A DNA stretch of 32,095 bases from Acidobacteriota bacterium (GTDB taxonomy: Bacteria; Acidobacteriota; Terriglobia; Terriglobales; SCQP01). A program made the translations under genes and the position numbers. Positions 1 to 31,845 of the stretch are shown one piece after another (position 1 is the stretch's first letter; each line of letters begins with the position of its first letter). Location of the stretch: contig JAJYIU010000032.1 of NCBI GenBank assembly GCA_021789895.1, forward strand, positions 1 to 32,095. The letters are read 5' to 3'. Under the pieces are notes generated by a model. That model had not been told where the DNA came from and searched no databases. It worked only from the letters and a program-made list of their open reading frames with translations.

Positions 1-868
1 TGCCGGCATTGCCGGAATTGCTGATGCCGCCGGCGAGCAGGACGGGGCCCTGGGCGCTGGGGCCGATTTCCAGGCTGGTAATCCAGCCGGAATTGACGAA
101 TTCGCCGCGTTCGCGGCCGGCGCCATCAAACAGCAGCACCAGGCTGGGCCACCAGGTAAAGTGGCGAAGCGCCCAAGCAATGCGCACGCCCGCCGGCGTA
201 GCATAAGCGGCAAGCGGGCCCTGGTTCCACGGCGGACTGAACCACCCGCCGCGAAAATGCAGGCGCAGGGAAGGAACCCAACTCCAACGCTGGCGGCCGG
301 CGTCGCTGAAGTCGTAGAGCCGGGATTGCTTCAGATTCCCGGCGGCGGAAGAGGGATCAAAGGTCATGGCGGCAGTAAAATTGCCGCCGTTTGGTCCGTA
401 CCAATGCCGGGCCGTACTGAGTGTAAAATGCGATGCGAATTGATGCCGCCACGCGACCCGCCCCGCCGCGTTGCGGCCAATCAGAGATTGCCCGCTTTGG
501 ACGAGGCTGGCAGCGGTATCGCTTGCCGCGGGGCGCAGGAGCAAGCGCAGCGCCGCCCCCATACCGGTTAGCAAAACCAGCAGCGCCGCCCAGCTACTCA
601 TACGCAGGCGGGACCTGCGCCAGTTCCAGCGATGATTTTGCATGCCGGCTTTGATCGGCTCGGGCTGCGGCGTGGATGCCTTCTGATGCAGCCAGGCATC
701 CAGCTCGTGCGTGTATGCAAAGACAATCGACCTTCGGCTGCCGGGAATGCGGTGTACCGGCAGACCCTTGGTGGCCTCCCAGCGGGATGCGGTACGGATA
801 TCCCGTCCCAGATAGGCGGCGATCTCTTTCCAGGAATCTAAACGGTGACTCAAGGGGGAATCGGTCAT
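1..868 (-). CDS. Membrane-anchored HTH protein, probable one-component regulator (partial, runs off left edge)
   Basis: The minus-strand frame is open from the ATG at 868-866 to the window edge, 289 codons with no stop, so the 3' end is missing. Residues 10-60 form a MerR/excisionase-like helix-turn-helix (SWKEIAAYLGRDIRTASRWE, then GLPVHRIPG and ELDAWL), a module common at the N-terminus of Acidobacteriota proteins. A basic stretch (RRSRLRM, about 84-90) precedes one hydrophobic segment (about 92-112, WAALLVLLTGMGAALRLLL). About 175 residues of a Trp/Gly-rich domain follow, including FVNSGWITSLEIG and LLAGGISNSG. The implied topology is cytoplasmic DNA-binding domain, single TM and extracytoplasmic sensor, as in CadC/ToxR-type regulators but with a different HTH. 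No strong Shine-Dalgarno is seen. It is divergent from the giant ORF at 1225, so control of that gene is plausible but inferred. The ligand is unknown. Confidence 0.8.
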   Translation of the reverse strand, partial: MTDSPLSHRLDSWKEIAAYLGRDIRTASRWEATKGLPVHRIPGSRRSIVFAYTHELDAWLHQKASTPQPEPIKAGMQNHRWNWRRSRLRMSSWAALLVLLTGMGAALRLLLRPAASDTAASLVQSGQSLIGRNAAGRVAWRHQFASHFTLSTARHWYGPNGGNFTAAMTFDPSSAAGNLKQSRLYDFSDAGRQRWSWVPSLRLHFRGGWFSPPWNQGPLAAYATPAGVRIAWALRHFTWWPSLVLLFDGAGRERGEFVNSGWITSLEIGPSAQGPVLLAGGISNSGNAG

Positions 869-1224: not shown

Positions 1225-4200
1225 ATGAAGCCGAGACACATCGTCCGAGCGGCCCTGCTGGCCGGAATGTTGACCCTGGTTTGCTATCCCCCCACCATGC
1301 CGGCGCAAGCCGGACCGGCAAGGCAGCCGGCGGCGGGGCGGGCCGCCGCCGCGGCCCGCCGCCAAGCCCAGCAGGCGGCGCGGCTCCAGGCGGCTTATGG
1401 CCGCCTGCCGCTCAGCTTTGAGCCCAACCAGGGTCAGGCGCCGCCCGCGGTACGCTACCTGGCGCACGGGGCCGGGTACACGCTGCTGCTGACGGCGAAG
1501 GGAGCGGTGCTCGCGCTCGCCGGGCGGGGCCAACGCACGACGGTGCGCATGCGGCTGGCGGGCGTGCGGCAGCAGCCGGTGTTTTCGGGACGGCAAGAGC
1601 TGGCGGGGCGGGTGAATTACCTGATCGGCAACGATCCGGCGCGCTGGCACACCCAGATTCCGCTCTACCGCCAAGTACAGGCGGCGAACGTCTATCGCGG
1701 CATCGCCCTGGTGTATTACGGCAACCGCGGCCGGCTGGAATACGATTTTGACGTGCATCCCGGGGCCCATCCCGGGGACATTCGCCTGCAGATGGAAGGC
1801 GCCGCGCCGGCGCGCATTGCCGCCGATGGCAGCCTGCAGTTTTCAACGCCGGCGGGAATGGTGAGTTGGCTGCATCCGGTGGCGTATCAGCCTGCGGTTG
1901 CCGGCCACGCCCGCCGCCCCGTCCAGGCTCGCTTCGTGCGCCTGGCGCACAAACAGTACGGTTTCCGGCTGGGCCCCTACGACCACGCCCGCCCGCTGGT
2001 CATCGATCCCAGCATCGTTTACTATCCCGCGCTGGTCTATTCCACCTTGCTCGGCAGCCCCAGTGGCACCGAGCAATCCGACACCCAGACCCATATCGCC
2101 GTAGATGGCAATGGCGATGCTTATCTGGTAGGCCAAACGAGCGCCTCCGATTTTCCGATGACCACGGGCGCTTACAACCCCAGCTTTCCCGGCGGCGTCT
2201 GCACGGACAGTAGCGGCGGAAGCAAGCCTTGCTCCGCCATTTTTATAACCAAGCTGAATGCCAGCGGCAGCCAGTTGGTTTACTCCACCTATCTGGGCGG
2301 CACCAATCGGGACAAAACTTTCGGAGTGGCGCTCGACAGCACCGGCCAGGCTTATGTGGTCGGCATGACTTCATCCGCGGATTTTCCCGTCACCGCCGGC
2401 GCCTACCAATCGCAGCTCGCCTCCGGCACGTGCGACGTGAATGGCGGTACCGCCGGAGCTTGCCCCAACGCCTTTTTGACGGTATTGAACGCCAGCGGAT
2501 CGGGCCTGGTGTATTCGACCTATTTAGGCGGTCCCGGTCCTTCCACTCCCGCTGGCCTCAGCGGCGCGAATGCCGGACTCGGCATCGCGGTACTCTCGCC
2601 TTCCGCGGTCTTCATCAATGGCGTCAGCGCTTCGAGCGGCTTTCCCACCACCGCCGGCGTATATCAGCCTGCCTATCCCGGCATCCCCGGCTGCTATTTC
2701 GGGGGTACCCAAGGCAACTGCCCGGTGGATTTCGTGGCCAGGTTCGATCCCACCCAGAGCGGCTTGGCCTCATTGGTGTATTCCACCTACCTCGGCGGCG
2801 CCCAGGGCTCAACCGGCATAGATGAATTGCTCATCAATAATGGCGGTCCTGCGGGCGGGATCGCGGTCGATAGCGCCGGCAATGCCTACGTCACCGGCCC
2901 CACCGACGATTACACCTTTCCCGACATTTCCGGCAGCTTCGGCACGGGCGGATCGGGACCCATTGGCAGTTGTTCCATCCTCGGCCAGTCGGGCATGTGC
3001 AATGTCGCCTTCGTGACCAAGTTGAACCCCACCGGCACGGCGCTGGTCTATTCCGGATTTATCGGCAATGGAAATGGCACCGACACCGGATCGTTGGCGA
3101 TCGCGCTAGACGGCAGCGATGACGCCTATATTACCGGATACACGACCAGCGGCTTTCCCACCACCGCCGGCGCCTTTCAGACTTCGTTTGGCGGCGGATC
3201 GCTCGACGCCTTTGTGACCGAAATCAACGCAGCCGGCAACGGCCTGGTGTACTCCACCTATCTGGGCGGCTCCGGGGATGAATTGGAGATGGCCAATGGC
3301 GGTAGCCTGGGCACCCTGGCCGTGGATGGCTCCGGCCAGGCCTATATCACAGGCAATACCGATTCCAGCGATTTTCCTACGCAGCATTCATTGCAGGCGT
3401 TCAACCAGGGCAACAACTGCACGGCTACCAACAATGATGGCACCACCCGCCCATGCACCGATGCCTTTATCACCATGCTCAACGCCAATGGCTCCGGCCT
3501 GGTATTTTCCAGCTTTTTCGGAAGCGGAGGCGATGACACAGGCGACGGCATCGCGCTCGATGCAAGCGGCAATATTTATGTTTCCGGCGAAACTCAAGGA
3601 AGTGGCAGTGGAAATTCATATGCTTTTCCCACCACATCGGGAGCATTCCAGACCACGTTGCCATGCTGCGAAAACGCTTCCTTTGCCGCCAAAATCTCAT
3701 TGAGCACCAGCGCCGTGGTGGTCAGCCCCACCTCGCTGAACTTTGGCGATGTCAATCTCAATACCACCAGCCCCGCCCAAACTCTGACGTTTGCCAACGA
3801 TACCAACGTTGCGGTGACGCCGCAAAGCGGCAATATCAGCGGCACGGATGCCTCTGAGTTTAACGTGCTCGGTGCTTCGACCTGCGCGATTGGCACGCCG
3901 ATACCCGCCGGGGGGACCTGCACGCTGATGATTACCTTCAGCCCTGCATACTCGGGAAGCGCCAGCGCCATGCTGACGGTGAGCACCGACAGCACGGTGA
4001 CGCCCGCGTTGTCGGTTCCGCTCAGCGGGAATGGCGTTTCCGGCGGCACGGTCTCGTTCTCGCCGGGCAGCCTCAACTTCGGCAATCAGGCGGTGGGCAC
4101 CACCAGTGCGCCGCAAATGGTCACGATCACCAACACCGGCACCGGTCCGGTGAATAACATCAATATCTCCACCACCTCGAGCGAGGACATTCAGGGCTTT

Positions 4201-7200
4201 CTGTTTGCTGCCAACTGTCCAAGCAGCCTGGCCGCCGGCGCCAGTTGCACGGTGAATATCAGCTTCGATCCCGATGCGGTAGCGACAGTCAACGGCCAGT
4301 TGCTGGTTTACGACGATGCCGCCGGCAGCCCGCAATTCATTAACCTCAGCGGCAGCGGGGTGCAGGGCGTCAATCCCGGGGTCACGTTCTCGCCCGCCAG
4401 TCTTTCGTTTGGCAATCAGGTAGCCGGCACGGTGAGCGCGCCGCAAACCGTGACCATCACCAACACCGGCACGAGCCCGCTGGCCATCACCAATATCGGT
4501 ACGCCGTCCACCTTCCCGAATATTCAAAACTGTCCCAGTTCGCTAGCGTCCATGGCCAGTTGCACGGTCAGCGTCAGCTTCGCTCCCAATGCTGTCGGAT
4601 CGACGAGCGGCACCTTGCAGGTTTTCGACAACGCCGCCGGCAGCCCGCAATTCATAAGCCTCTACGGCAGTGGGGTGCAGGGTACCGGCGTGGGGAATCC
4701 CGTGCCATTGATTGCCCAGCCGCTAGTGCCCGATGCCGCGATGCCGGGAGCCGCGAATTTCACGTTGACCGTCAACGGCACCGGCTTCGTGTCCGGCGCG
4801 GCAGTGGATTGGAATGGCCAGGCGCTGATGACCACTTTCGTCAGCAGCTCTCAATTGACCGCGGCAGTTTCATCCATGGACGTTGCCAACGGCGGCACCG
4901 CTGTCATCGCGGTGGTGAATCCCAGCGGCGCCAGATCCAACCCCGCCTTGTTCACGATTGTCGCCCCCTCGACCAATCCAACCTTTGTCAATGCCTCCAA
5001 CTCCCCCTTCCCCGCGGGGAATTCACCGGTGAAGGTTGCGATTGGCGACTTCAACGGCGACGGCAGAATGGACCTGGCCATCGCCAACAATTCGGATAAT
5101 ACGGTCACGATTCTGCTGGGGAATGGCAACGGCACGTTCACGCAAGCGCCGGGCTCGCCGATCGCCGTGGGCAACGCTCCCTACGCCATCGCGGTAGGCG
5201 ATTTCAACGGCGACGGCAGGCAGGACTTGGCTATCGCCAATGGCGGGATCAATCAAAACGGCTCGAATAATGTGACCATTCTGCTGGGCAACGGCGACGG
5301 CACCTTCAACCAGGCGTCCGGTTCGCCCATCGCCGTAGGGAATGGGGCGGATGCCCTTGCCGTAGGCGACTTCAATGGGGATGGCACGCTGGATCTGGCG
5401 GTCGCGAATTATAACGACGCCACTATAATCATCCTGATGGGCAATGGCGATGGCACATTTACGCCGGCATCGGGTTCGCCCCTATCGGTCGGCAGCGAAC
5501 CTATTGCCATTGCGGTGGGCGATTTCAACCACGACGGCAAGCTGGATCTGGTGGTCTCCGATTTTGGCAGCAGCAATGTGATTGTCTTGCTGGGCAACGG
5601 CGACGGCACCTTCACCTCGGCGCCCAGCCAGCCCGGAGTCGGCGTCGGACCCGATGGCATTGCCGTAGGCGATTTCAACGGCGATGGCAACCTGGATCTG
5701 GCGGTGGCGAACAGCAGCAGCAATAACCTGACCATCCTGCTGGGCAATGGCAGCGGCGGGTTCACCCCAGCCTCCGGCTCGCCCATCGGCATGACGAATC
5801 CCGCTCGCATCATCGCCGGCGACTTCAATGGGGATGGCAAGCTGGATCTGGCGGTCACGAATACAACCAACAACACGGTGACCCTGCTGCTGGGCAACGG
5901 CGATGGCACATTTACGCCTGCCGCCAGTTCGCCCGTGAGCGTGGGGTCCAATCCGTTCGGGATCGCCGCCGGCGATTTTAACAACGACGGCCTGCTCGAT
6001 TTTGTCACGGCCAATCTGTCCAATGTTTCCGTGATGTTGCAATCGCCCGCGGGCGGGAGCGGGTTTTCGGCCGGGATGGCCAGCTTCGCCTGCCTGGGGG
6101 CGTCGAGCTGCCTCCAACTGAATTTCGGCAACCAGGCGATCAACACCACCAGCGCGGCGCAGACGTTGACCATCACCAATACCGGCACCGGGCCGCTCGG
6201 GAATCTCTATATCACGACCCACTCGAATGAATCCATCCAAGGATTTCCCTTCACGACCAACTGCTCCAATACGCTGGCGGTCGGCGCCAGTTGCACGGTC
6301 AACATCAGCTTCCAGCCGAACGTCATCGGCGCGGTGAGCGGGCAACTGCTGGTCAGCGACGATGCCGTCAACAGCCCGCAAGTGCTGCCGCTCAGCGGCA
6401 CCGGGGTGCAAAGCGGTTCGGGCGGAGTGGTGACGATCACCCCCGGCAACCTCGGCTTCGGCGGACAGATTCTGGGCACGACCAGCAGCGCCCAGACGGT
6501 CACGATTACCAATACCGGCAGCGGAACGCTGGGCAGCATCGCGATTTCCATCTCGCCCGGCAGCGCGGCTTCGGTGTTTCCGTTCACCACCACTTGCGCC
6601 AGCACGCTCGCGGCCGGCGCCAGTTGCACCGTGAGCCTCAGCTTCGCACCCGCCGTGCAAGGGCTGGCCACCGGTCAACTGCAGGTCGCGGACGACGCCG
6701 CCAACAGCCCGCAATCCATTCCTATCGCCGGCAGCGGCATGCTAGCCAACCAGCTGCAGCAGATCATCACCACCATCGCCGGCGGGGACGCGCCCCAGGA
6801 TCTCCCAGCGAATCAAGCGCCGGTGGGCACTCCCTGCGGACTGTCTGCCGATGCCGCCGGCAATTTTTATCTGGGCGATTGGTCCAATAAACATATTTAT
6901 AAGATCAATAGCGCCGGCCAACTCACCACCATCGCCGGCAATGGCACGGTCATCTACACCGGCGACGGCCCGGCCACCGCTACCGGCTTTGAATTGGGCG
7001 GCTTTCCTATCTGCGGCTTTACGGCGGATAGCAGCGGCAATGTTTATTTTGTGGATCATCCCATCACGGGGCTAAGTGCGAGCGGCTTTCAGCAAACCAG
7101 CACCATCCGCGAAATTGTCGCCGCCACCGGCCAGATCCAAACCTTGATTCCGAATCTGCAACCCGGATACAGCGGCGACGGCGGGAAGGCCTCCAATGCC

Positions 7201-10200
7201 CAATTGAGCTCCGCCGTTTTTTCCCTGGCGTTGGATCCCACCGCGGCTTATGGCTTCATCGCCGATTCCGGCAACAACGTCATCCGCGAAGTCAATATCA
7301 GCACGGGTATCATCACCACCCTGGCCGGCAATGGCATGCCCGGCGTCACCGGCGATGGCGGTCCGGCCGGCGGGGCTTCGCTGGATTTTCCCACCAGCAT
7401 CGCCCTGGATGCAGCCGGCAATCTCTACATTGCCGAAGCGAACTTTGTCAAAGAAGTGCCCTGCGCCACGGGCGCAGCCGGTTGCGCACCGCCCAACGGC
7501 GAACAAGCCGGTTACATTTACAATCGCGTGACTTTACCCACCTCGGTCCAGCTCAACAACGGCACTTCCATGCTGGCCATTGCCGTGGATAATTCCGGGA
7601 ATGTCTATATCGCCGATACCGCGCACAATCTCATCTATAGTTCTCCCGCCGGGCAAACCACGGCGAGCTTGTACGCCGGCGGCGGCACCGCCGGCCTGGA
7701 TGAAGGCGGACCGGCCACTTCCGCTACCCTGCTTCACCCCAATGCTTTGCTCGCCGCCGGCGGCAATCTCTATCTCAACGACCCCGGCAACGCCCGCGTC
7801 CAGTTAGTGAATTCGACCGGCAACATCCAAACCATATTTGGCAACGGCTTATCTTCTTTATTCGGCGCTAACCTGCCCGCTACCCAGACGGAAGCCTCCA
7901 ACTACCAGGCCACCGCCGCGGATGCGCATGGGAACATTTATCTTTCCGATACCAATGACAATGTTATACGCGAAATCACGCCCCAAGGCATCATCAGCAC
8001 CGTCGCCGGGAATCTGACCAGCGGCAACAGCGGCGACAACGGCCCCGCCACGTCGGCGCAATTAAACCATCCCATGGGGATCGGCTTCGATGGTCAAGGC
8101 AATCTCTACATCGCCGACACGGCCAACAATGTCGTGCGCGAAGTCAAAGCCGCCACCGGCATCATCACCACCATCGCCGGCAATGGCACCAGCGGTTATA
8201 CCGGCGATGGCGGCCCGGCTACCAGCGCGGAACTCAATAACCCCGCTATTCTTGCGCTCGATCCCGCGGGGGATTTGTTCATCCTGGACTACAGCAATGT
8301 GGTCCGCGAAGTGACGCCGGATGGGATCATTCACACCGTCGCCGGCAATGGCGTCTATGGCAACACCGGCCTGGGCAGCCCGGCCACCAGCGCGGAACTT
8401 TCACCTGAATTTATTGCCGTGGATCACGCCGGCAATCTGTTCATCACCGACGATCAAAGCCAGGTGTTGGAAGTTCCTTGCGTGACGGCTTTGTCTAGCT
8501 GTACTCCGCCCAGCGGCGAGACCGCCGGCTATCTCTATGCCGTCGCCGGCAACGGCACCCCTGGCTACAGCGGCGATGGCGGGCCGGCAACGGCGGCGCA
8601 ACTGGCCGTCCCCTATGACCTGCGGGTGGATGCTTTGGGCAATATCTTCGTGCTGGATGCGGCCGAATCGGCGATTCGCGAATTCACCGTCGGCGGCACG
8701 ATCACGACGATTGCCGGAACGGGCATGCCCGGCTTTGGCGGCGACGGCGGGCCGGCGATAGATGCCCACCTGAACTGGCCCATGTTCATGGCCTTGACGC
8801 CCGCCGGCAGCCTGGTGTTCGACGATGAGGGCAATTCCCGCATTCGCAGCATCAGCAATGTGGAGGTCGCCGGGGCGAGTGTCAATCCGGCTGCACTCAA
8901 TTTTGCCGATCAACAGGTGGGCACTACCAGCGCGCCGCAGACCGTGACCATCACCAATACCGGCGGCGCCAATCTCGTTTTTTCATCGATCTCCGTCAAC
9001 GATAATGATTTCACGGTCGGCAATAACACTTGCGCGACTGGCGGGGATGGCCTTGTGCCCGGCGCAAGCTGCACGGTTTCGGTAATATTCCAACCCACGG
9101 TCATGGGCTCATATACCGTCACGCTGACCTTGACCGACAATGCCGCCGACAGCCCGCAAGCGGTCGCGCTCTCCGGCACCGCCTTCGCACCGGTGGCCAG
9201 TCTGTCATCCGCTTCGCTCAGCTTTGGCGATCAGTTGCTGCATACGGCCAGCAGCGCGCAAATAGTGACTTTATCCAATTCCGGCACGGCGGCGCTGGCG
9301 ATCAGCTCGATTACCGCCGCGGGCGACTTTGCCGAAACCAACACTTGCGGTTCTACCCTGGCGGTGGGCGCCAATTGCGCCATCTCGGTAATCTTCACAC
9401 CCACCGTAACAGGCGCGCGCACCGGCACGCTGACCTTGACCGACAATGCCGCCGACAGCCCGCAAGCGGTCGCGCTCTCCGGCACCGGCATCGCGCCGGT
9501 GGCCAGTCTGTCATCCGCTTCGCTCGACTTTGGCGATCAGTTGCTGCACACGGCCAGCAGCGCGCAAATAGTGACTTTATCCAATCCCGGCACGGCGGCG
9601 CTGGCGATCAGCTCGATTACCGCCGCGGGCGACTTTGCCGAAACCAACACTTGCGGTTCTACCCTGGCGGTGGGCGCCAATTGCGCCATCTCGGTAATCT
9701 TCACACCCACCGTAACAGGCGCGCGCACCGGCACGCTGACGATCACCGATAGCGCCGGCGGCAGCCCGCAGGCGGTCGCCTTGTCCGGCACCGGCACCGA
9801 GCCGTTGCTCAATATTGCGCCTGCATCGCTCAGCTTTGGGAATCAATTGCTGCACACGGCCAGCAGCGCGCAAATAGTGACTTTATCCAATCCCGGCACG
9901 GCGGCGCTGGCGATCAGCTCGATTGCCGCCTCGGGCGACTTTGCCGAAACCAACACTTGCGGTTCTACCCTGGCGGTGGGCGCCAATTGCGCCATCTCGG
10001 TAATCTTCACACCCACGGCCACGGGCGCGCGCACCGGCACGCTGACGATCACCGACAATGCCGGCGGCAGCCCGCAGACGGTCGCCTTGTCCGGCACTGG
10101 CACCGAGCCGTTGCTCAATATTGCACCCGCATTGCTCAGTTTTAGCAATCAATTGCTGAACACCACCAGCGGCGCGCAGGCGGTGACTTTATCCAACACC

Positions 10201-13200
10201 GGCACGGCGGCGATGACGATCAGTTTGATTGCCGCTTCGGGCGACTTTGCCGAAAATAACAATTGCGGTGCGTCACTCGCCATCAACGCCACTTGCGCCA
10301 TTTCGGTGACGTTCAAGCCGTCCGCGGAGGGCGCGCGCACGGGCACGCTGACAATCACCGACAATGCCGGCGGCAGCCCGCAGACGGTCGCCTTGTCCGG
10401 CATCGGGATCGAGCCGATGGCAGTGCTCTCGGCCAGCACGCTGGATTTTGGCAGCCAATATATCGGCCTGAACGGCACACCGCAGACGGTCACTTTGAGC
10501 AATACCGGTTCGGGAGCCACGGCGCCCTTGAGCATCAGCGGCATCAGCGCCTCGGCCGGGTTCGTCGAAAGCTCGAATTGCGGCAGCAGCCTGGCGATAG
10601 GCGCGAGTTGCACCATTTCCGTCAGCTTCGTTCCCACGACTGCCGGCGCCTACACCGGTGCGCTGACGATCAGCGATAACGCCGGTAACAGCCCGCAGGC
10701 GGTGGCGCTCAGCGGCACGGGGGTGATCGGCTATCCGACGGTCACGTTGAATACGACCAGCCTGACCTTCCCCAGCCAGCAGCCTGGCACGATCAGCGCG
10801 GCGCAGCCGGTGATCGTGTCCAATACCGGCCATGCCGTATTGAATATCGGCGGAATCGCGATTGACGCCGGATTCCAGCAAACCAACAACTGCGGCAGCA
10901 GTCTGGGAGTGGGCTCGAGCTGCACCATTCAGGTCAGCTTTGCGCCGGTAGCCAAGTCGGTAGGAACGATTACCGGCAATCTGACGATTACGGACAATGC
11001 CGCCAACAGCCCGCAAAGCGTAAGCCTGAGCGGCACCGCGGTAACGCTGAACAACTGGACCGGATTGACGGCCAGCGGAAGCCTGCCCTGGAGAAACGGC
11101 GCGGACGTGCTGCCGGATGGACAGGACGATCTGATCGTGTTCGGCGGGGGCAACAGCCAAACGAATCTGAATGACACCTGGGTGCTCAGCCATGCCGATG
11201 GCCTGGGCGGGACACCCACCTGGACGGAACTGACTCCGGCCAGCGAGCCGCCGGCCCGTCACAATGCGTTCGCGGCTTATGCCGCGGCATCCAACCGGCT
11301 GATCGTGTTTGGCGGCTGCGAGGGCGGATGTTATCCGATGGACACCGCGGTCTGGGTGCTGAGCCATGCCAATGGGCAAGGCGGCACGCCGGCGTGGAGT
11401 CAGCTTGCAACCAGCGGCACCGCCCCCTGGATCCGCCAGGGAGGGGTGACTGCATACGATCCCGGTAGCAACCGCCTGATCATCTTCGGCGGGCAAAACG
11501 GCTGGGGCTCGGGCGGGGTGTACACCGACACCTGGGTGCTGACCAATGCCGACGGGACTGGTTCCGGCAGTCCGACCTGGATCAAGCTGGCCACCAGCGG
11601 AGGCCCGCCGCAGTACAACTATTTCCCGGGCTCCTACTACGACGCGAAAAACAACCGGCTGGTGGTGCTGGGCGGCAGCGACGCGACGAGTGGGAGTTCC
11701 AATGCAATCTGGACGCTGGCGAACGCCAACGGCTTAGGCGGGACGCCGACCTGGACCAATAGCCTCGCCCAGGGCACGGCCGGGGCACCGAGCAATTTCC
11801 AGGGCGGGGGAATGTACTTCGCCGATTACAACGCCGGCAGCAACCTGGGTTGGGTGTTGCTGGTACCGACGATGGCGCAAATTCCCAATCCCGAATTGTG
11901 GCAAGTCTCCAACGCCAACGGGACGAGCACGCCCGCCTGGAACCAAACCCCGGCAAGCGGCCTGCCCAACGACGGCAGCGGCGTTTATCACTACATGGAG
12001 GGCATGGTCTTCAACCCGGACAGCGGGGTGTTGACGGCCCTGCTGGCCAACTCCGCGGACAACACCATGCAGGCGTATGTGCTGAACCCGCAACAGGCTT
12101 CGGCGCCGGTGGTCAAGCTTTCCGCCAGCAGCTTGAGTTATCCTTCCCAAACCGTGGCTTCGGCCAGCGCCGGGCAGCCAATCACCTTAACCAATATCGG
12201 CACAGCGCCTTTGGCGATCAGCTCAATTGCCGCTTCAGGCGACTTTGCCGCAAGCAACGATTGCAGCGCCTCGCTCGCGATCAACACCAGTTGCACGATT
12301 TCGGTGGCGTTTACCCCCACCCTGGCCGGGACGCGCACCGGCACGCTGACGATCATTGACGACGCCGGCGACAGCCCGCAGACGGTGGCGCTTAGCGGCG
12401 AGGGCGTGGACACTACGCCTGCCGTTTCGCTATCACCCACTACCTGGGACTTTGGCAACGTCTATCTCGGCCAAGCCGGGCTGGGCGTGATCACGCTGAC
12501 CAACACCGGCAACGCCACCCTGGCGATCAGCGGCATCAGCGTACCGGCAGCGTTCAATCTCAATACATCCAGCAACTGCGGCAGCAGCCTGAACGCCGGC
12601 GCCAGTTGCATCATTTCGGTCAGCTTCATTCCCACCACCGCCGGGCCCGTCACCGGCTCGCTGACTATCAGCGACAATGCCAGCGGCAGCCCGCAATCGG
12701 TGGCGCTGGCCGGCACGGGAGTGGTCGGCGCCCCCACCGCGGGGATCACGCCGGCGAACGGATTGAGTTTCGGCAGCCAAGCCACCGGCACGCCGAGTAC
12801 TCAGACGGTCATTCTGGCCAATACCGGCAACGGCGCGATGACGATCAGCTCGATCAGCGCGAGCGGCGATTTCAGCCAGGTCAACGGCTGCGGCGCCATG
12901 CTGGCGGCGAATGTCACTTGTTCGATATCCATTACCTTCACGCCGACGGCGACCGGCAGCCGCAGCGGAACCCTGTCCATTTCCGACAATGCGCCGAACA
13001 GCCCGCAAACCGTGACCCTGAGCGGCACCGGGATGGCGCCGGGCATTTCGTTCACGCCCAGCGCGATCGTGTTTGGCGGGACCGAATTGAATGCGACTGC
13101 CACGGCCGGCTTGACCATACAGAACACCGGCAATGAGGATCTGCACATCAGCGGCGCCAGCGCCAGCCTCGGCGATTTTGCCGTTGCCAGCGGTTGCGCC

Positions 13201-16200
13201 ATCGTGCCGGCAGGCAGCAGTTGCAGCTTGAACGTCAGCTTCACGCCCACCGCCACCGGCCTGCGCAGCGGCACGATCAGCTTCACCGACGATGCCGCCG
13301 GCAGTCCGCAAACCGTGCCGGTTTCCGGAATGGGCACCGCCCCCGGCGTTTTCCTCGCCCCCGCCAACGTCAGCTTCCCCCCGACCAACAAGGGGGCGAG
13401 CAGTTATCCGATTACCGTGACCCTGACCAACTCCGGTACCGGCGCGTTGAACAATCTTGCGATCGCCGCCCTGGGCGACTACACGATCACCAACCATTGC
13501 CCGGCTTCGCTCGGCGCCGGGCAGAACTGCGCCATTGACGTGGTTTTCACGCCGCAGATCGCCGGCCAGGATTCGGGCACGCTCAATTTCAGCGACGCCG
13601 CCGGACAGCAAACCGTTAATTTGTCGGGCACCGGCCTGGCGCCCGGCGCCAGCCTCAGCACCAACCAACTTTTCTTTGGCGGGCAGTTGACTGGAACCAC
13701 TTCGCCCGCGCAGACGGTAGTGTTGACCAACAACGGCACGGGGGTGCTGAACATCACCGGCATCACGACACTGGCCGGATTCAAGCTGGTGACCAGTTGC
13801 GTGGACACCAGCGGCACCGGCACGCTTGCCGCCGGCGCCAGTTGTCCGCTGAACATCGCCTTCGCCCCGCAGTCCAGCGGGGTGGACACGGGCAGTGTAG
13901 TGATCGCCGATTCGGCCGGGACCCAATTGGTGCAGGTTACCGGGTACGGCAACGTCGCCGGGCTGACAGTGACTCCGTCGGTGGTCACCTTCGGCGCGGA
14001 GATGGTGAACACCATCAGCGAATCGCAAACCATCACCGTCACCAACACCGGCACCACCGACCTGGTCTTGAATCCGATTCAAGCCAGCGGCGATTTTCAG
14101 GCGGTCAGCACCTGCCCGGCCGCTCCGGCCGTGTTGAAGGCGGGCGCCTCCTGTCCGGTCAACGTCAGTTTCGGGCCGACCACGGTGGGCGCGCGCAGTG
14201 CGACCCTGACGGTCAGCGACAGCGCGGGAACGGTCACAACTTCCGCCATCCTGCAAGGCACCGGGACCTTGCCCGGCATCAGCACCTCTCCCTCGACCCT
14301 GTTCTTTGGCGGCGAGGCGGTGAACACGACCAGCAGCATGCAAACCATCACCGTCAGCAATACCGGCACCGCGCCCCTGCAAATTTGGTTGATCAAGACC
14401 AGCGGCGATTTCAGCGAAATCAATAACTGTACCATGGCCAGTTTGCCGGCCGGCCAGACCTGTGTCATCAGCGTGGCGATGACTCCGACCACGCTGGGCA
14501 GCGAAAACGGCCAAATCGAGATCTACGATAACGCGGACGGGCTGCATACCATCGCGCTCAGCGGCGTCGGCATGGGCGCGGGCATATTGCTGCAGCCTTC
14601 GAGCCTGGCCTTTGGCAGCCAGCCGATCCCCAGCGCCAATGGCTCCGGGGTTACGTTGACCGGCCCGACGCAAGCGGTGCTGCTAACCAATACCGGCAAT
14701 GCTCCATTAGCGCTCTCAGGATTGAGTATCCAGAGTCCATTCAGCCAAAGCAACGACTGCGGCACGAGCCTTGCCCCCGGCGCAAGCTGCACGCTATCTA
14801 TCAGCTTTAATCCTACGATCCAGGGGCAGGCGACCGGTTCGCTGACGATTGCCGATACCTCCGGCAACTCCGAATCGGTCGCGTTGAACGGCTATGGCAG
14901 CCCCAACGGGTTAACCTTGTCGCCTTCCAGCCTCAATTTCGGCACTCAGGCGGTGAACCAAAACGGCAGCGCGCAAACCGTAACCCTGACCAACAATACG
15001 GGACAAAACATCAGCAACCTGAAGATTGTCGCCAGCGGCGAGTTCAGCGTAACCGATACTTGCGGCGGTGCCATCGCCAACGCGGGAAGTTGCACCCTGC
15101 AGGTCAGCCTGCAGCCGCTGACCTCGGGAACGATTACCGGCTCGATCAGCATCAGCGGCAACCTGAGCGGCAGTTCCTCGGCCGCATTGCGCAGTCCGCG
15201 GCCGCGCTATTCCTCCGGCTCGGTCAATGCCAACGGGCTGGCTGAGATTGCCTTAATCGGCAACGGCAGCGCCGCGGGCGTCAGCCTGTCGGCGAACAAC
15301 TTAACCTTTGTCAACCAGCCGACCGGAACGACCAGCGCGGCGCAGACGATCGTACTGACCAACAGCGGACAAGGCGATCTGGCCGGGGTGAACATCGGCA
15401 TTTCGGGTGATTTCAGCCAATCGAACACCTGCACAGCTACCGTAGCCGCCGGAGCCAAGTGCAGCATCCAGGTCAAGTTCACTCCGAGCGTGACCGGCAC
15501 GCGCACCGGCCAGTTGAGCATCACCGACAGCGCCGCCGGTTCGCCCCAAATCGTTTCGCTGAGCGGCGTCGGTTTTATTCCTACGCCGAAAGCCGATCTT
15601 TCGGCGGCCAATTTGGCCTTCACACGGCAGCCGGTGGGAACCGCCAGCAGCCCGCAAGTGCTGACCATTTCCAATTCCGGAACCGCCAATTTGACCTTCA
15701 GCGCCATCGGCCTGAGCGGAAAGAATGCGGCGGATTTCGCTATCGCGACCGGCGCCACGACCTGCACGACCAGCGCGGCGCTGGTTGCCGGCGCCAAGTG
15801 TACCATCGGCATCATCTTCACCCCCGGCGCGACCGGCGCCCGCAGCGCGACCTTGAGCCTGGCCGACAATGCGCTCACCAGCCCGCAAACGGTGGCCTTG
15901 GCTGGAGGCGGGGAAGATTATTCGTTGGCAGTGACGTCGGGAATGCCCAGTTCCATTACCATCTCGCCGGGCGCAAGCGCCAATTATTCGCTTAGCGTTG
16001 CCCCGCTCGGCAACTCCACGCAGTCCGTCACCCTGGCCTGCAGCGGGGCGCCGGCCTACTCCACTTGCAGCGTTTCGCCGGCCTCGCTGACTCTCGACGG
16101 GACGCATACCGCCGCGGTTGCAGTGACGGTCACCACCACCTCGGGCTCGTTCCTGCCGCCGCCGGCGCCCCCGTCCGTTCCCCGGCTGCCACCGGCGATC

Positions 16201-16458
16201 TGGCTGGCGCTGGCGGGATGGCTGGCGGCCGGCATGCTATGGCTGCGGCGGCGGCGCAGCCGGCGCTGGGCGTGGGGCGGGTTGGCCGGCTTGCTGCTCG
16301 CCAGCGCCATGCTGGCCGGCTGCGGCGGGTATAGCCGCACCAATGCCACGCCCGCGGGGAATTACACCCTGCAGGTCACGGCGACCTCAGGCACGCAATC
16401 GCACACTACGAGCCTGAACCTGACGGTTTCACTATGCCCGGGATGCAATAGCCATTAG
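1225..16458 (+). CDS. Giant secreted multi-propeller / choice-of-anchor-D surface protein (5,077 aa)
   Basis: One uninterrupted frame encodes a predicted cell-surface protein. Residues 1-29 are a signal peptide (cleavage near MPAQA|GP). Residues about 57-255 match the DUF7948-type domain that precedes SBBP repeats (LSFEPNQGQ, VRYLAHGAGYTLLLT). Then follow seven SBBP repeats (265-825), three choice-of-anchor-D modules, a TIG-like segment (about 1160-1250), seven FG-GAP repeats (1255-1605), two more modules, an NHL block (1846-2546), seven modules, a Kelch block (3273-3626) and twelve modules. The total is about 24 ASH/Hydin-like beta-sandwiches of about 102 residues, nearly all with one closely spaced Cys pair. 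The C-terminus has two hydrophobic segments (about 4991-5010 and 5018-5034) around a basic LRRRRSRR loop, then a short beta-rich tail ending CPGCNSH. The protein is probably exported and membrane-anchored. Adhesion, matrix or polysaccharide binding are guesses from modular architecture; no catalytic site was recognised. It is monocistronic. Confidence 0.9.
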   Translation: MKPRHIVRAALLAGMLTLVCYPPTMPAQAGPARQPAAGRAAAAARRQAQQAARLQAAYGRLPLSFEPNQGQAPPAVRYLAHGAGYTLLLTAKGAVLALAGRGQRTTVRMRLAGVRQQPVFSGRQELAGRVNYLIGNDPARWHTQIPLYRQVQAANVYRGIALVYYGNRGRLEYDFDVHPGAHPGDIRLQMEGAAPARIAADGSLQFSTPAGMVSWLHPVAYQPAVAGHARRPVQARFVRLAHKQYGFRLGPYDHARPLVIDPSIVYYPALVYSTLLGSPSGTEQSDTQTHIAVDGNGDAYLVGQTSASDFPMTTGAYNPSFPGGVCTDSSGGSKPCSAIFITKLNASGSQLVYSTYLGGTNRDKTFGVALDSTGQAYVVGMTSSADFPVTAGAYQSQLASGTCDVNGGTAGACPNAFLTVLNASGSGLVYSTYLGGPGPSTPAGLSGANAGLGIAVLSPSAVFINGVSASSGFPTTAGVYQPAYPGIPGCYFGGTQGNCPVDFVARFDPTQSGLASLVYSTYLGGAQGSTGIDELLINNGGPAGGIAVDSAGNAYVTGPTDDYTFPDISGSFGTGGSGPIGSCSILGQSGMCNVAFVTKLNPTGTALVYSGFIGNGNGTDTGSLAIALDGSDDAYITGYTTSGFPTTAGAFQTSFGGGSLDAFVTEINAAGNGLVYSTYLGGSGDELEMANGGSLGTLAVDGSGQAYITGNTDSSDFPTQHSLQAFNQGNNCTATNNDGTTRPCTDAFITMLNANGSGLVFSSFFGSGGDDTGDGIALDASGNIYVSGETQGSGSGNSYAFPTTSGAFQTTLPCCENASFAAKISLSTSAVVVSPTSLNFGDVNLNTTSPAQTLTFANDTNVAVTPQSGNISGTDASEFNVLGASTCAIGTPIPAGGTCTLMITFSPAYSGSASAMLTVSTDSTVTPALSVPLSGNGVSGGTVSFSPGSLNFGNQAVGTTSAPQMVTITNTGTGPVNNINISTTSSEDIQGFLFAANCPSSLAAGASCTVNISFDPDAVATVNGQLLVYDDAAGSPQFINLSGSGVQGVNPGVTFSPASLSFGNQVAGTVSAPQTVTITNTGTSPLAITNIGTPSTFPNIQNCPSSLASMASCTVSVSFAPNAVGSTSGTLQVFDNAAGSPQFISLYGSGVQGTGVGNPVPLIAQPLVPDAAMPGAANFTLTVNGTGFVSGAAVDWNGQALMTTFVSSSQLTAAVSSMDVANGGTAVIAVVNPSGARSNPALFTIVAPSTNPTFVNASNSPFPAGNSPVKVAIGDFNGDGRMDLAIANNSDNTVTILLGNGNGTFTQAPGSPIAVGNAPYAIAVGDFNGDGRQDLAIANGGINQNGSNNVTILLGNGDGTFNQASGSPIAVGNGADALAVGDFNGDGTLDLAVANYNDATIIILMGNGDGTFTPASGSPLSVGSEPIAIAVGDFNHDGKLDLVVSDFGSSNVIVLLGNGDGTFTSAPSQPGVGVGPDGIAVGDFNGDGNLDLAVANSSSNNLTILLGNGSGGFTPASGSPIGMTNPARIIAGDFNGDGKLDLAVTNTTNNTVTLLLGNGDGTFTPAASSPVSVGSNPFGIAAGDFNNDGLLDFVTANLSNVSVMLQSPAGGSGFSAGMASFACLGASSCLQLNFGNQAINTTSAAQTLTITNTGTGPLGNLYITTHSNESIQGFPFTTNCSNTLAVGASCTVNISFQPNVIGAVSGQLLVSDDAVNSPQVLPLSGTGVQSGSGGVVTITPGNLGFGGQILGTTSSAQTVTITNTGSGTLGSIAISISPGSAASVFPFTTTCASTLAAGASCTVSLSFAPAVQGLATGQLQVADDAANSPQSIPIAGSGMLANQLQQIITTIAGGDAPQDLPANQAPVGTPCGLSADAAGNFYLGDWSNKHIYKINSAGQLTTIAGNGTVIYTGDGPATATGFELGGFPICGFTADSSGNVYFVDHPITGLSASGFQQTSTIREIVAATGQIQTLIPNLQPGYSGDGGKASNAQLSSAVFSLALDPTAAYGFIADSGNNVIREVNISTGIITTLAGNGMPGVTGDGGPAGGASLDFPTSIALDAAGNLYIAEANFVKEVPCATGAAGCAPPNGEQAGYIYNRVTLPTSVQLNNGTSMLAIAVDNSGNVYIADTAHNLIYSSPAGQTTASLYAGGGTAGLDEGGPATSATLLHPNALLAAGGNLYLNDPGNARVQLVNSTGNIQTIFGNGLSSLFGANLPATQTEASNYQATAADAHGNIYLSDTNDNVIREITPQGIISTVAGNLTSGNSGDNGPATSAQLNHPMGIGFDGQGNLYIADTANNVVREVKAATGIITTIAGNGTSGYTGDGGPATSAELNNPAILALDPAGDLFILDYSNVVREVTPDGIIHTVAGNGVYGNTGLGSPATSAELSPEFIAVDHAGNLFITDDQSQVLEVPCVTALSSCTPPSGETAGYLYAVAGNGTPGYSGDGGPATAAQLAVPYDLRVDALGNIFVLDAAESAIREFTVGGTITTIAGTGMPGFGGDGGPAIDAHLNWPMFMALTPAGSLVFDDEGNSRIRSISNVEVAGASVNPAALNFADQQVGTTSAPQTVTITNTGGANLVFSSISVNDNDFTVGNNTCATGGDGLVPGASCTVSVIFQPTVMGSYTVTLTLTDNAADSPQAVALSGTAFAPVASLSSASLSFGDQLLHTASSAQIVTLSNSGTAALAISSITAAGDFAETNTCGSTLAVGANCAISVIFTPTVTGARTGTLTLTDNAADSPQAVALSGTGIAPVASLSSASLDFGDQLLHTASSAQIVTLSNPGTAALAISSITAAGDFAETNTCGSTLAVGANCAISVIFTPTVTGARTGTLTITDSAGGSPQAVALSGTGTEPLLNIAPASLSFGNQLLHTASSAQIVTLSNPGTAALAISSIAASGDFAETNTCGSTLAVGANCAISVIFTPTATGARTGTLTITDNAGGSPQTVALSGTGTEPLLNIAPALLSFSNQLLNTTSGAQAVTLSNTGTAAMTISLIAASGDFAENNNCGASLAINATCAISVTFKPSAEGARTGTLTITDNAGGSPQTVALSGIGIEPMAVLSASTLDFGSQYIGLNGTPQTVTLSNTGSGATAPLSISGISASAGFVESSNCGSSLAIGASCTISVSFVPTTAGAYTGALTISDNAGNSPQAVALSGTGVIGYPTVTLNTTSLTFPSQQPGTISAAQPVIVSNTGHAVLNIGGIAIDAGFQQTNNCGSSLGVGSSCTIQVSFAPVAKSVGTITGNLTITDNAANSPQSVSLSGTAVTLNNWTGLTASGSLPWRNGADVLPDGQDDLIVFGGGNSQTNLNDTWVLSHADGLGGTPTWTELTPASEPPARHNAFAAYAAASNRLIVFGGCEGGCYPMDTAVWVLSHANGQGGTPAWSQLATSGTAPWIRQGGVTAYDPGSNRLIIFGGQNGWGSGGVYTDTWVLTNADGTGSGSPTWIKLATSGGPPQYNYFPGSYYDAKNNRLVVLGGSDATSGSSNAIWTLANANGLGGTPTWTNSLAQGTAGAPSNFQGGGMYFADYNAGSNLGWVLLVPTMAQIPNPELWQVSNANGTSTPAWNQTPASGLPNDGSGVYHYMEGMVFNPDSGVLTALLANSADNTMQAYVLNPQQASAPVVKLSASSLSYPSQTVASASAGQPITLTNIGTAPLAISSIAASGDFAASNDCSASLAINTSCTISVAFTPTLAGTRTGTLTIIDDAGDSPQTVALSGEGVDTTPAVSLSPTTWDFGNVYLGQAGLGVITLTNTGNATLAISGISVPAAFNLNTSSNCGSSLNAGASCIISVSFIPTTAGPVTGSLTISDNASGSPQSVALAGTGVVGAPTAGITPANGLSFGSQATGTPSTQTVILANTGNGAMTISSISASGDFSQVNGCGAMLAANVTCSISITFTPTATGSRSGTLSISDNAPNSPQTVTLSGTGMAPGISFTPSAIVFGGTELNATATAGLTIQNTGNEDLHISGASASLGDFAVASGCAIVPAGSSCSLNVSFTPTATGLRSGTISFTDDAAGSPQTVPVSGMGTAPGVFLAPANVSFPPTNKGASSYPITVTLTNSGTGALNNLAIAALGDYTITNHCPASLGAGQNCAIDVVFTPQIAGQDSGTLNFSDAAGQQTVNLSGTGLAPGASLSTNQLFFGGQLTGTTSPAQTVVLTNNGTGVLNITGITTLAGFKLVTSCVDTSGTGTLAAGASCPLNIAFAPQSSGVDTGSVVIADSAGTQLVQVTGYGNVAGLTVTPSVVTFGAEMVNTISESQTITVTNTGTTDLVLNPIQASGDFQAVSTCPAAPAVLKAGASCPVNVSFGPTTVGARSATLTVSDSAGTVTTSAILQGTGTLPGISTSPSTLFFGGEAVNTTSSMQTITVSNTGTAPLQIWLIKTSGDFSEINNCTMASLPAGQTCVISVAMTPTTLGSENGQIEIYDNADGLHTIALSGVGMGAGILLQPSSLAFGSQPIPSANGSGVTLTGPTQAVLLTNTGNAPLALSGLSIQSPFSQSNDCGTSLAPGASCTLSISFNPTIQGQATGSLTIADTSGNSESVALNGYGSPNGLTLSPSSLNFGTQAVNQNGSAQTVTLTNNTGQNISNLKIVASGEFSVTDTCGGAIANAGSCTLQVSLQPLTSGTITGSISISGNLSGSSSAALRSPRPRYSSGSVNANGLAEIALIGNGSAAGVSLSANNLTFVNQPTGTTSAAQTIVLTNSGQGDLAGVNIGISGDFSQSNTCTATVAAGAKCSIQVKFTPSVTGTRTGQLSITDSAAGSPQIVSLSGVGFIPTPKADLSAANLAFTRQPVGTASSPQVLTISNSGTANLTFSAIGLSGKNAADFAIATGATTCTTSAALVAGAKCTIGIIFTPGATGARSATLSLADNALTSPQTVALAGGGEDYSLAVTSGMPSSITISPGASANYSLSVAPLGNSTQSVTLACSGAPAYSTCSVSPASLTLDGTHTAAVAVTVTTTSGSFLPPPAPPSVPRLPPAIWLALAGWLAAGMLWLRRRRSRRWAWGGLAGLLLASAMLAGCGGYSRTNATPAGNYTLQVTATSGTQSHTTSLNLTVSLCPGCNSH
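2020..3700 (+). repeat. SBBP beta-propeller block, seven repeats
   Basis: Seven units share the SBBP pattern LVYSTYLGG, then IAVDxxGNAYVTG, then SxDFPTT, at roughly residues 265-825 of the giant protein. Seven units fit one complete seven-bladed propeller. Units three and four carry longer insertions with extra Cys pairs. Unit five (LVYSGFIGNGNG) and unit seven (LVFSSFFGSGGDD) are the most diverged. Confidence 0.8.
4985..6040 (+). repeat. FG-GAP/VCBS-type repeat block, seven units
   Basis: Seven copies of GDFNxDGxxDLAxAN followed by VTILLGNGDGTF and a spacer with SPIxVG lie at about residues 1255-1605. The DxNxDGxxD core is the calcium-binding loop of integrin-like FG-GAP propellers, so calcium binding is expected. 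Seven units again fit a seven-bladed propeller. Confidence 0.85.
6760..8860 (+). repeat. NHL-type propeller block, about ten repeats
   Basis: Recurrent TTIAGNGxxGYxGDGGPATSAxL followed by P, DxxGNLYIADxxNxVIREV lie at about residues 1846-2546. About ten or eleven TIAGNG-like units can be counted, some degenerate (for example the Gly-poor unit near 7830-7900). That is more than one six-bladed NHL propeller. Two blades carry a matched insertion of type EVPC, CxPPxGE, AGYxY near 7450-7520 and 8470-8540. Confidence 0.8.
9190..10413 (+). repeat. 306-bp tandem DNA repeat, four units within the giant ORF
   Basis: Units begin at 9190, 9496, 9802 and 10108, with the equivalent point of a fifth, diverged module at 10414. 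Spacing is exactly 306 bp, one 102-residue choice-of-anchor-D module. Bases 9281-9434 appear identical to 9587-9740 by eye, and the third unit differs by only a handful of bases; the fourth is clearly more diverged. The pattern indicates recent in-frame duplication or gene conversion. Confidence 0.85.
11041..12100 (+). repeat. Kelch-like propeller block
   Basis: Units of NRLIVFGGxxG, then DTWVLSxAxGxGGTPxW, then LxxSGxxPxxR recur about five to six times at residues 3273-3626. This is the Kelch / galactose-oxidase-central-domain pattern. The last units (near 11760-12060) are degenerate. The block sits between two runs of choice-of-anchor-D modules and no Cys pairing is conserved in it. Confidence 0.75.
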
Positions 16459-18373: not shown

Positions 18374-18476
18374 TAGGCTCAATATACCTCCGCGTTGATT
18401 GGCGGCGGCGGCGAGGAGAGCGGAACGGGCCGGAAGAAAGCGGCTTATAGTAAGCTGCAGAATGTTGAGCCGACCG

Positions 18477-21164: not shown

Positions 21165-21299
21165 TTTCTCAATAAAGTTGTAACCCAATTCACGCGTTTG
21201 CATTTATTCGCATGGCGGCGAAATCGCGCAAGCGTTTCGTCAGGAACTTCCGGCCAACATGGCCGGGCAAGCCGAGAGCTGTACAGCACGGTGTAAAGC
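21165..21299. other. Intergenic region with small hairpins
   Basis: This 135-bp gap separates the glycosidase-like gene from the seven-gene run and is the natural place for the operon promoter. CCGGCC (21250-21255) and GGCCGG (21261-21266) can form a 6-bp hairpin, and GCTGTACAGC (21278-21287) is a perfect 10-bp palindrome just upstream of the ATG at 21300. No convincing -35/-10 pair was found. Confidence 0.4.
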
Positions 21300-22670
21300 A
21301 TGGCTACATTCATTGAAACTTCGAGGGTTGAAATTGCAAGCATACCAACGGCAGCCAGCGCGGAGCAGGGCGCAAGCCTCAATAAGCTGCTGGAAAAAAT
21401 CAAACAGCGCCAGGCGCGGGTAGGGGTGATCGGGCTGGGATACGTCGGCCTGCCGCTGGCGCTGGAGTTTGCCCGCTCCGGTTTTCGCGTTACCGGCTTC
21501 GAGGTGGACGCCGAGCGGGCCGAGCTGGCCAACCAGGGGCGGAGCTACATACCCGACGTGGCGAATGTGGCCTTGGAGCAAGCACTGAGCAGCCGGCGTT
21601 TCCGGGCCAGCGGCGATTTCCGCGAGCTGGAAGAGATGGATGCGGTCTCGATTTCGGTGCCCACGCCGCTGAGCAAGACCAAAGATCCAGATCTGTCGTA
21701 TGTGGTGCAGGCCGTGGACCAAGTGGCGGAGCGGCTACATCGCGGGCAGCTCATCGTGTTGGAGAGCACGACCTACCCGGGCACGACGGAAGAAGTGGTG
21801 TTGCCGCGGCTGGAGCGGGGCGGGATGCGGGTGGGCGAGGATTTCTTTCTCGCCTTTTCACCCGAGCGGGTGGATCCGGGAAATGCGCGCTACCAGACCG
21901 GCAACATCCCCAAGGTGGTGGGCGGGATGACGCCGCAATGCCAGCGCGCGGCCGCCGCGCTGTATGGAAGTTTTGCCTCCCGCCTGGTGACGGTTTCCTC
22001 GGCGCGCGCGGCGGAAATGGTCAAGCTGCTGGAAAACACCTTTCGGAACGTGAACATCGCGCTGGCCAACGAGATGGGCCAGCTCTGCCGCAAATTCAAT
22101 CTCGACGTTTGGGAAGTCATCGAAGCCGCGAGCAGCAAGCCGTTCGGCTTTATGCCGTTTTATCCCGGGCCCGGCCTGGGCGGCCACTGCATTCCGATCG
22201 ATCCGGTATATCTGACCTGGAAAGCGCACGCCAACGGCTTCGAACCGCGCCTGATCGAAGCGGCGCAGCAGATCAACGGGCAGATGCCGCGGCTGGCGGT
22301 CGAGCGCGTGGCCGAAGCGCTCAACGACGCCGGCAAAGCCATCCGTGGCTCGCGCATACACATTCTGGGCGTGAGCTATAAGCCGGACGTCGCCGATCTG
22401 CGGGAATCCCCGGCCCTGGATATCATGCGCCTGCTGGCGGAAAAACACGCCCGGCTTTCCTACACCGACCCCTGGGCGCCGCAGCTCGATGAGCCCGGGA
22501 TTGCCTTGGCATCGGAGCCCCTGGAGAGGCTCGAGGAAAAGGACTGCGCGGTGATCGTGACCCATCATCGCGCCTTCGATTACGCCAGGATTTTCCGCGA
22601 GGCGAAGTTGATCGTAGATACTCGCAACGCGCTGGCGGGGTATCACGATCCCAAGATTTACCGGCTTTGA
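21300..22670 (+). CDS. Nucleotide-sugar dehydrogenase (UDP-glucose/UDP-HexNAc 6-dehydrogenase family)
   Basis: This enzyme oxidises C6 of a UDP-sugar to the uronic acid using two NAD+. The Rossmann motif is GVIGLGYVGLPLA (starting at G42). The substrate-binding helix is KLLENTFRNVNIALANE, and the catalytic cysteine is C297 in GPGLGGHCIPIDP. The C-terminal UDP-binding domain includes ILGVSYKPDVADLRESPA. Total length 456 aa is normal. The SVPTPLSKTKDPD segment and PGLGGHCIPIDP resemble the WecC/TviB/WbpA branch (UDP-ManNAc, UDP-GlcNAc or UDP-GalNAc) more than classical Ugd, but the substrate is not settled. About 35 N-terminal residues precede the fold. The next gene begins 13 bp downstream, suggesting co-transcription. 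Confidence 0.9.
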   Translation: MATFIETSRVEIASIPTAASAEQGASLNKLLEKIKQRQARVGVIGLGYVGLPLALEFARSGFRVTGFEVDAERAELANQGRSYIPDVANVALEQALSSRRFRASGDFRELEEMDAVSISVPTPLSKTKDPDLSYVVQAVDQVAERLHRGQLIVLESTTYPGTTEEVVLPRLERGGMRVGEDFFLAFSPERVDPGNARYQTGNIPKVVGGMTPQCQRAAAALYGSFASRLVTVSSARAAEMVKLLENTFRNVNIALANEMGQLCRKFNLDVWEVIEAASSKPFGFMPFYPGPGLGGHCIPIDPVYLTWKAHANGFEPRLIEAAQQINGQMPRLAVERVAEALNDAGKAIRGSRIHILGVSYKPDVADLRESPALDIMRLLAEKHARLSYTDPWAPQLDEPGIALASEPLERLEEKDCAVIVTHHRAFDYARIFREAKLIVDTRNALAGYHDPKIYRL

Positions 22671-22683
22671 GGATGGTAGGGCC

Positions 22684-25281: not shown

Positions 25282-25323
25282 AGCCGCGCGCGGGCGCGGG
25301 CCGGCTTGGCATTGGAATCCATC

Positions 25324-30840: not shown

Positions 30841-30964
30841 AACCGGGTAGAGGAGATGACCGCGATCAGCGCCGGCGGCGGCGAAGGCAAAAAGAGCAGG
30901 TGATAAAATATGAGTTACGCAGAGTTAGTTGAACATAGAAACCAGGAGCGGTCTCCGCCGGGAC

Positions 30965-31570: not shown

Positions 31571-31845
31571 CGCTGGATGCGAAGCCAGGCTGCCGGGAAG
31601 TGTTTGCAGCGCTTTCGGCGTTCGTGGACGGAGCGCTGCCCGATTCCGATTGCAGGCGGCTGGAAGAACACATGCAGGGCTGCAAACCGTGCCTGGCGTA
31701 TATCGAATCGCTGAAGACGACGATTCGGGCCTGCGGGGCCTACCAGGTACGCGGCATTCCGCCACCGCCGCCGGCAGTGCGGGAGGCGCTGCGGCGCCGG
31801 CTGGCAAGCATCTACGCTGGCGGGACGAAGCGGCGGAAGAGATAG
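31567..31845 (+). CDS. Zinc-finger anti-sigma factor (92 aa)
   Basis: This small protein carries the zinc-binding anti-sigma motif H35-x3-C39-x2-C42 (EEHMQGCKPC), preceded by C9 in GCREVFAALSAFVDGALPDSDC, as in RsrA/ChrR-type anti-sigma domains. It would bind and silence the sigma factor encoded immediately upstream; the ATGA overlap gives coupled, near-stoichiometric translation. There is no transmembrane segment, so the signal is probably cytoplasmic (redox, metal or a soluble partner) rather than envelope stress sensed directly. The C-terminus is basic (TKRRKR). C29 is an extra cysteine that could take part in redox sensing, but this is only suggestive. Confidence 0.85.
   Translation: MTLDAKPGCREVFAALSAFVDGALPDSDCRRLEEHMQGCKPCLAYIESLKTTIRACGAYQVRGIPPPPPAVREALRRRLASIYAGGTKRRKR

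Follow-up and report, generated by a model that had tools for sequence, protein, structure and literature searches.

Within the 32,095-nucleotide stretch of Acidobacteriota DNA analyzed here (the window), an open reading frame on the forward strand (1225-16458) runs for 5,077 codons without a stop, with AGAGGA placed 5 bases upstream of its ATG. A preliminary description read the 5,077-aa product as a long stalk of beta-sandwiches carrying four heads, each a beta-propeller of another family, and considered this combination unusual. The question raised by this locus is whether these families are indeed united in a single chain and, if so, what kind of protein the giant represents.

The protein was scanned in four pieces against Pfam and NCBIfam, and its blades and modules were counted with HMMs built from the blades of the giant itself. 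The resulting domain order is DUF7948, SBBP (7 blades), choice-of-anchor D (CoaD, 3 modules), choice-of-anchor Z (CoaZ, 1), FG-GAP (7), CoaD (2), NHL (12), CoaD (7), Kelch (6), CoaD (12) and one lipo-invert tail (invert_tail); the DUF7948, the CoaZ module and the tail were additional to the earlier list. The coordinates are collected in Table 1. The seven SBBP and seven FG-GAP units described before were recovered, the CoaD runs of 3, 2, 7 and 12 proved exact (24 choice_anch_D matches), and the estimate of five to six Kelch units settles at six. For the NHL block, the family was correctly recognized but the number was not: 12 blades are counted instead of about ten.

Each of the four blocks exceeds the curated Pfam cut-off of a different family, and no two of them fall in the same one. 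SBBP (PF06739) reaches 105 bits (cut-off 20.5), with several repeats above the gathering score; the same model also scores on part of one NHL blade, where the NHL models are far stronger. The FG-GAP block matches FG-GAP_3 (PF13517) with 206 bits (cut-off 26.9) and PF01839 with 111 bits, and all seven blades contain a calcium-type loop, DFNxDGxxD. The NHL block is matched by TEN_NHL (PF25021, 112 bits vs. 27.1) and NHL (PF01436, 38 vs. 20). A Kelch propeller is predicted from the KLHDC2-type (86 bits vs. 50) and Kelch_3 (40 vs. 22) profiles.

Table 1. Features of the giant gene and of the gene upstream of it (window positions).
Feature	Positions	Strand	Residues	Basis
Divergent gene, cut by contig end (candidate regulator)	2..868	-		Profile search, neighborhood
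Giant gene, 5,077 aa	1225..16458	+		ORF, orthologue in sister species
Signal peptide (putative)	1225..1308	+	~1-28	Read off the sequence
DUF7948	1417..2010	+	65-262	Pfam PF25778, 185 bits
SBBP propeller, 7 blades	2032..3690	+	270-822	Pfam, block HMM
CoaD modules 1-3	3691..4641	+	823-1139	choice_anch_D profile
CoaZ module	4660..4968	+	1146-1248	NF058597, 87 bits (match aa 1159-1245)
FG-GAP propeller, 7 blades	4981..6057	+	1253-1611	Pfam, motif count, block HMM
CoaD modules 4-5	6058..6705	+	1612-1827	choice_anch_D profile
NHL propeller A, 6 blades (predicted)	6811..7842	+	1863-2206	Block HMM, model
NHL propeller B, 6 blades (predicted)	7843..8865	+	2207-2547	Block HMM, model
CoaD modules 6-12	8848..11007	+	2542-3261	choice_anch_D profile
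Kelch propeller, 6 blades (predicted)	11050..12084	+	3276-3620	Pfam, block HMM
CoaD modules 13-24	12085..15879	+	3621-4885	choice_anch_D profile
invert_tail anchor	15880..16458	+		NF058595 match aa 4887-5069, structure model

The 12 NHL blades are predicted to form two six-bladed propellers. Solved six-bladed NHL rings fit the AlphaFold2 model of the block (a shallow alignment of 5 sequences; mean pLDDT 77.5) at two places. At the first, covering model residues 28-371, the best fits are 7djm (Z 34.8) and NHLRC2 (6g7w, Z 34.7). At the second, the alignments stretch from residue ~8 to 716 but comprise just 246-325 aligned residues: the teneurin-like protein TLP (9ifo) gives Z 38.7 over 325 residues at 42% identity, and the designed Pizza6 rings align over ~246 residues. 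As one six-bladed ring cannot span both halves, this second set is taken to combine an early strand with residues 372-716; in the model, the strand (aa 1843-1852, 6751-6780) closes propeller B. Ring A would then sit within the closing strand of ring B, a tentative arrangement that could be an artefact, as it comes from one model with a shallow alignment. With rings covering either 28-371 or only 246-325 residues of 8-716, a single 12-bladed ring is unsupported, and 12-blade NHL blocks in other giants further support two rings. A double NHL propeller brings the number of propellers to five, of four families. The picture of a beta-sandwich stalk with different propellers is supported by the domains, the order in the orthologue and the C-terminal anchor, with five heads in place of four.

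An orthologue of 4,679 aa (P0002) is encoded by Acidobacteria bacterium YP1.bin64 (contig JAKASR010000021), a second species of the genus. Its domain order, blade numbers, anchor and divergent upstream gene are all identical in kind, whereas it has 20 CoaD modules (runs of 2, 2, 4 and 12) instead of 24. The architecture is real and conserved, as the same layout recurs in the sister species. The propellers form the constrained portion (79% identity for SBBP, 77% for NHL, 66-67% for FG-GAP and 66% for Kelch) and the spacers the variable one; the remaining parts show 71% (CoaZ), 56-68% (CoaD), 56% (N-terminus) and 60% (tail) identity. The propellers are under purifying selection: dN/dS ratios, which are rough because dS is high (~0.6-1.4), amount to 0.18-0.25 in the propellers, compared with 0.27-0.43 in CoaD, CoaZ, the N-terminus and the tail.

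Parts of the gene have a more dynamic history. CoaD modules 7-10 arose by the recent in-frame tandem expansion of a 306-bp unit (window 9061-10419; 88% DNA identity across 1,053 bp), an expansion that is absent from the orthologue. A paralogue in the same genome, C18 (1,869 aa), shares the DUF7948, seven SBBP blades, CoaD, the invert_tail and the divergent gene, but has a single propeller and 8 CoaD modules. Residues 51-150 of the giant are ~90% identical to C18 vs. ~48% to the orthologue; that the first 150-200 residues are nearer to the paralogue suggests gene conversion, which probably affected the 5' end of the giant gene (window 1225-1825, compared with L003). Together with the differing CoaD number (24 vs. 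20) and the abundance of two-family mosaics, the expansion and this 5' end in common with C18 speak for repeat accretion, in which repeat-rich genes of this lineage would recombine easily and the four-family chain would have arisen incidentally through fusion and tandem duplication, its heads lacking a joint function. However, the five propellers have stayed intact and in order at this dS, with a dN/dS of ~0.2 and no blade lost, even though CoaD counts vary; this reading is considered unlikely.

The stalk is built of 24 CoaD modules (NF012200), each scoring 57-82 bits against a cut-off of 45. A cysteine pair is conserved in all 24 (50 Cys in total), which fits with a location outside the cytoplasm, where the pairs would form disulfides. 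Modules 16-23 have colinear reciprocal best matches in two further giants, namely modules 9-16 of a 2,507-aa Kelch giant from the sister species and modules 6-13 of a 3,069-aa NHL giant from another genus, and they are partly colinear with modules 8-15 of the own-genome C46 (3,854 aa). The membrane-proximal stalk and tail hence represent a common chassis under different heads: giants with other heads contain the anchor together with eight C-terminal stalk modules.

The tail itself belongs to the lipo-invert family NF058595 (82 bits vs. a cut-off of 37, at the C-terminus). This family is present in all 14 genomes of the host's family, with 6-15 copies in 12 of them and never more than 15 per genome (window 15880-16458, loci L157-L186). 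In the structure model (pLDDT 85.4), the anchor is a single Ig-like sandwich (predicted at aa 4899-4971 and 5045-5068) made of strands flanking a two-helix hairpin (aa 4990-5009 and 5016-5031). One continuous domain of a bacterial sialidase (2ber, 404-502; 99 residues) superimposes on 98 residues within model positions 16-188 (Z 11.9, rmsd 2.0); the alignment omits the hairpin, which would be inserted in the Ig fold. A lipobox cysteine, Cys5033 (codon 16321-16323), lies at the end of this transmembrane hairpin and is invariant in 32/32 aligned tails, despite a mean column identity of just 40%. Lipidation of Cys5033 is putative. If signal peptidase II cuts there, the C-terminal strands would become a small lipoprotein completing the fold.

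Alternatively, the anchor could retain the chain in the inner membrane, and crossing of the outer membrane would then need another account. This leaves room for a periplasmic or envelope-spanning structural protein, whose propellers would assemble with envelope partners and not with external ligands: without onward transport of the protein, the hairpin would stay in the inner membrane, and the CoaD modules also score with ASH/HYDIN-type scaffold domains of Pfam. Its dimensions argue against confinement to the periplasm, though: at ~3.5-4 nm per sandwich, 24 modules would measure ~90 nm when extended, which far exceeds that compartment. We regard a periplasmic role as improbable.

How rare is the combination? 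The Kelch block was searched in 80 relatives, 396 genomes of the phylum and the GTDB r220 contig collection, DUF7948 in the 396 phylum genomes and NHL in 60 relatives, and the largest ORFs were inspected. None of these searches yielded a further four-family protein, and none of the own-genome CoaD, SBBP and invert_tail proteins examined combines the four. The propeller classes were also counted in 132 distinct ORFs (minimum length 600 aa) that carry one or more of them, a set chosen by propeller searches, partly fragments of longer ORFs, and not a random sample. In this set, four families occur only in the orthologue, three in none and two in 19. As far as searched, in a survey that is non-exhaustive since the counting HMMs derive from the giant and the contig scan relies on short conserved patterns, the four-family architecture is conserved within one genus only. 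The rarity claimed for it is supported, and of proteins with the same propeller order only the same-genus orthologue turned up. The 15-kb repeat-rich gene lies on a short contig, but an assembly chimera, with separate propeller genes misjoined across similar CoaD repeats, is ruled out by the sister-species contig, where the same chain recurs with block identities of 56-79%.

The combination is new in the searched material; the kind of protein is not. One or two propeller families with CoaD and an invert_tail anchor are common in the host's family and phylum, and Acidobacteriota often encode two-family mosaics and single-family giants. Some giants of 3,000-4,900 aa pair a single propeller family with CoaD or other repeats, for example SBBP with 23 CoaD modules (G024), NHL with CoaD (G005 and C46) and SBBP (G019). 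In another genus of the family, a 4,908-aa NHL/CoaD giant (L187, 2009-16732, reverse strand) has other long repeats and a lipo-invert-like tail. A 2,856-aa ORF (L152, 4898-13465, reverse strand) contains 29 NHL units and apparently comprises several consecutive NHL propellers.

The product of the divergent gene combines a weak N-terminal helix-turn-helix match (below the Pfam cut-offs), one apparent transmembrane stretch and an exported domain. The orthologue and C18 likewise have this gene upstream in divergent orientation. In a phylum search with five relatives as queries, followed by reading of the neighborhoods, a Kelch or PD40 propeller gene was the divergent neighbor at 4/5 of the strongest new loci with a readable neighbor (236-294 bits), an association that is not unbiased, as 2/5 query rows had been picked near Kelch genes. 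Such a neighbor is also present at G390:C13 and rarely at other weaker loci. The divergent protein may control expression of the giant and is a candidate regulator.

Downstream, on the forward strand (window 18399-31842), are genes for an MGH1-like glycoside hydrolase, a UDP-glucose dehydrogenase family protein, an outer-membrane beta-barrel with a carboxypeptidase-regulatory domain, a PMT-type glycosyltransferase, LPG_synthase_TM, YdjC, GT2, an ECF sigma factor and a zf-HC2 anti-sigma-like protein. This looks like an envelope-glycan region. No tRNA genes and no Rfam families were found in the window.

Taken together, it appears reasonably likely that the giant is a Sec-exported, C-terminally anchored, multi-head surface display protein. 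Export is supported by the CoaD cysteine pairs, the putative signal peptide and the anchor. The chain would be held at its C-terminus by the split Ig-like lipo-invert domain, with the transmembrane hairpin ending in the lipobox cysteine. Above it would rise the CoaD stalk, in which eight of the twelve proximal modules match other giants in position. Outward from there, the Kelch, double NHL, FG-GAP and lastly DUF7948-SBBP heads would follow, separated by CoaD runs of varying length. These heads would most probably act as separate binding modules whose ligands are glycans or proteins, the FG-GAP ring by way of its seven calcium-type loops, and their number could permit multivalent adhesion or capture at the surface. 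Expression would perhaps be controlled by the divergently encoded, membrane helix-turn-helix-like protein.

More tentatively, and with some doubt, this may be a distinct display system: a common chassis of about eight CoaD modules conserved in position and a split, lipid-anchored Ig domain with the lipobox inside the fold, interchangeable sets of propellers (here five, of four families) and expression under a membrane helix-turn-helix family whose genes adjoin those of propellers in several Acidobacteriota. This phylum has many giant repeat proteins, and the present one is a conserved example whose heads, stalk and anchor lend themselves to separate study. The common chassis with variable heads suggests a route to surface diversification in Acidobacteriota. 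Moreover, the anchor model offers a testable proposal for a C-terminal tail that occurs many times in a genome, and a candidate regulator is at hand in the divergent gene.

Literature searches returned nothing specific on choice-of-anchor, lipo-invert, SBBP or nested and tandem propellers, and almost nothing on Acidobacteriota giant repeat proteins. Among the proteins compared, a DAIDIE01 protein (1,627 aa; DUF7948-SBBP-CoaD-Kelch) shares SBBP, Kelch (60% identical), CoaD and the invert_tail with the giant, but is without FG-GAP and NHL. G052 and G054 (~2,550 aa; 13-14 FG-GAP and 12 NHL units) likewise have two of its propeller families and 12-blade NHL blocks, whereas SBBP, Kelch and CoaD were not detected in them. 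The closest NHL ring is that of the bacterial teneurin-like proteins (TLP, 9ifo; PMC13018210), six-bladed in both, and the rest of the TLP chain differs. Its YD/RHS shell and toxin domain are absent from the giant, and Pfam gave no YD/RHS repeats anywhere along its length; of the FN-plug, NHL and YD-shell superfold only the NHL part is present, which sets the giant apart from teneurins and TLP. It is not a polymorphic toxin either, as its C-terminus is a conserved anchor without a toxin domain (Pfam, NCBIfam). With respect to NF058595, the tail is a member, and its interpretation as a split Ig-like fold comes from the structure model of the present analysis. FG-GAP propellers with calcium loops occur in bacteria, at times in tandem (PMC3192720). 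The giant resembles these integrin-type rings in its seven blades and calcium-type DxDG loops, the loops being the basis of the likeness; here, in contrast, the ring belongs to a chain of five propellers.
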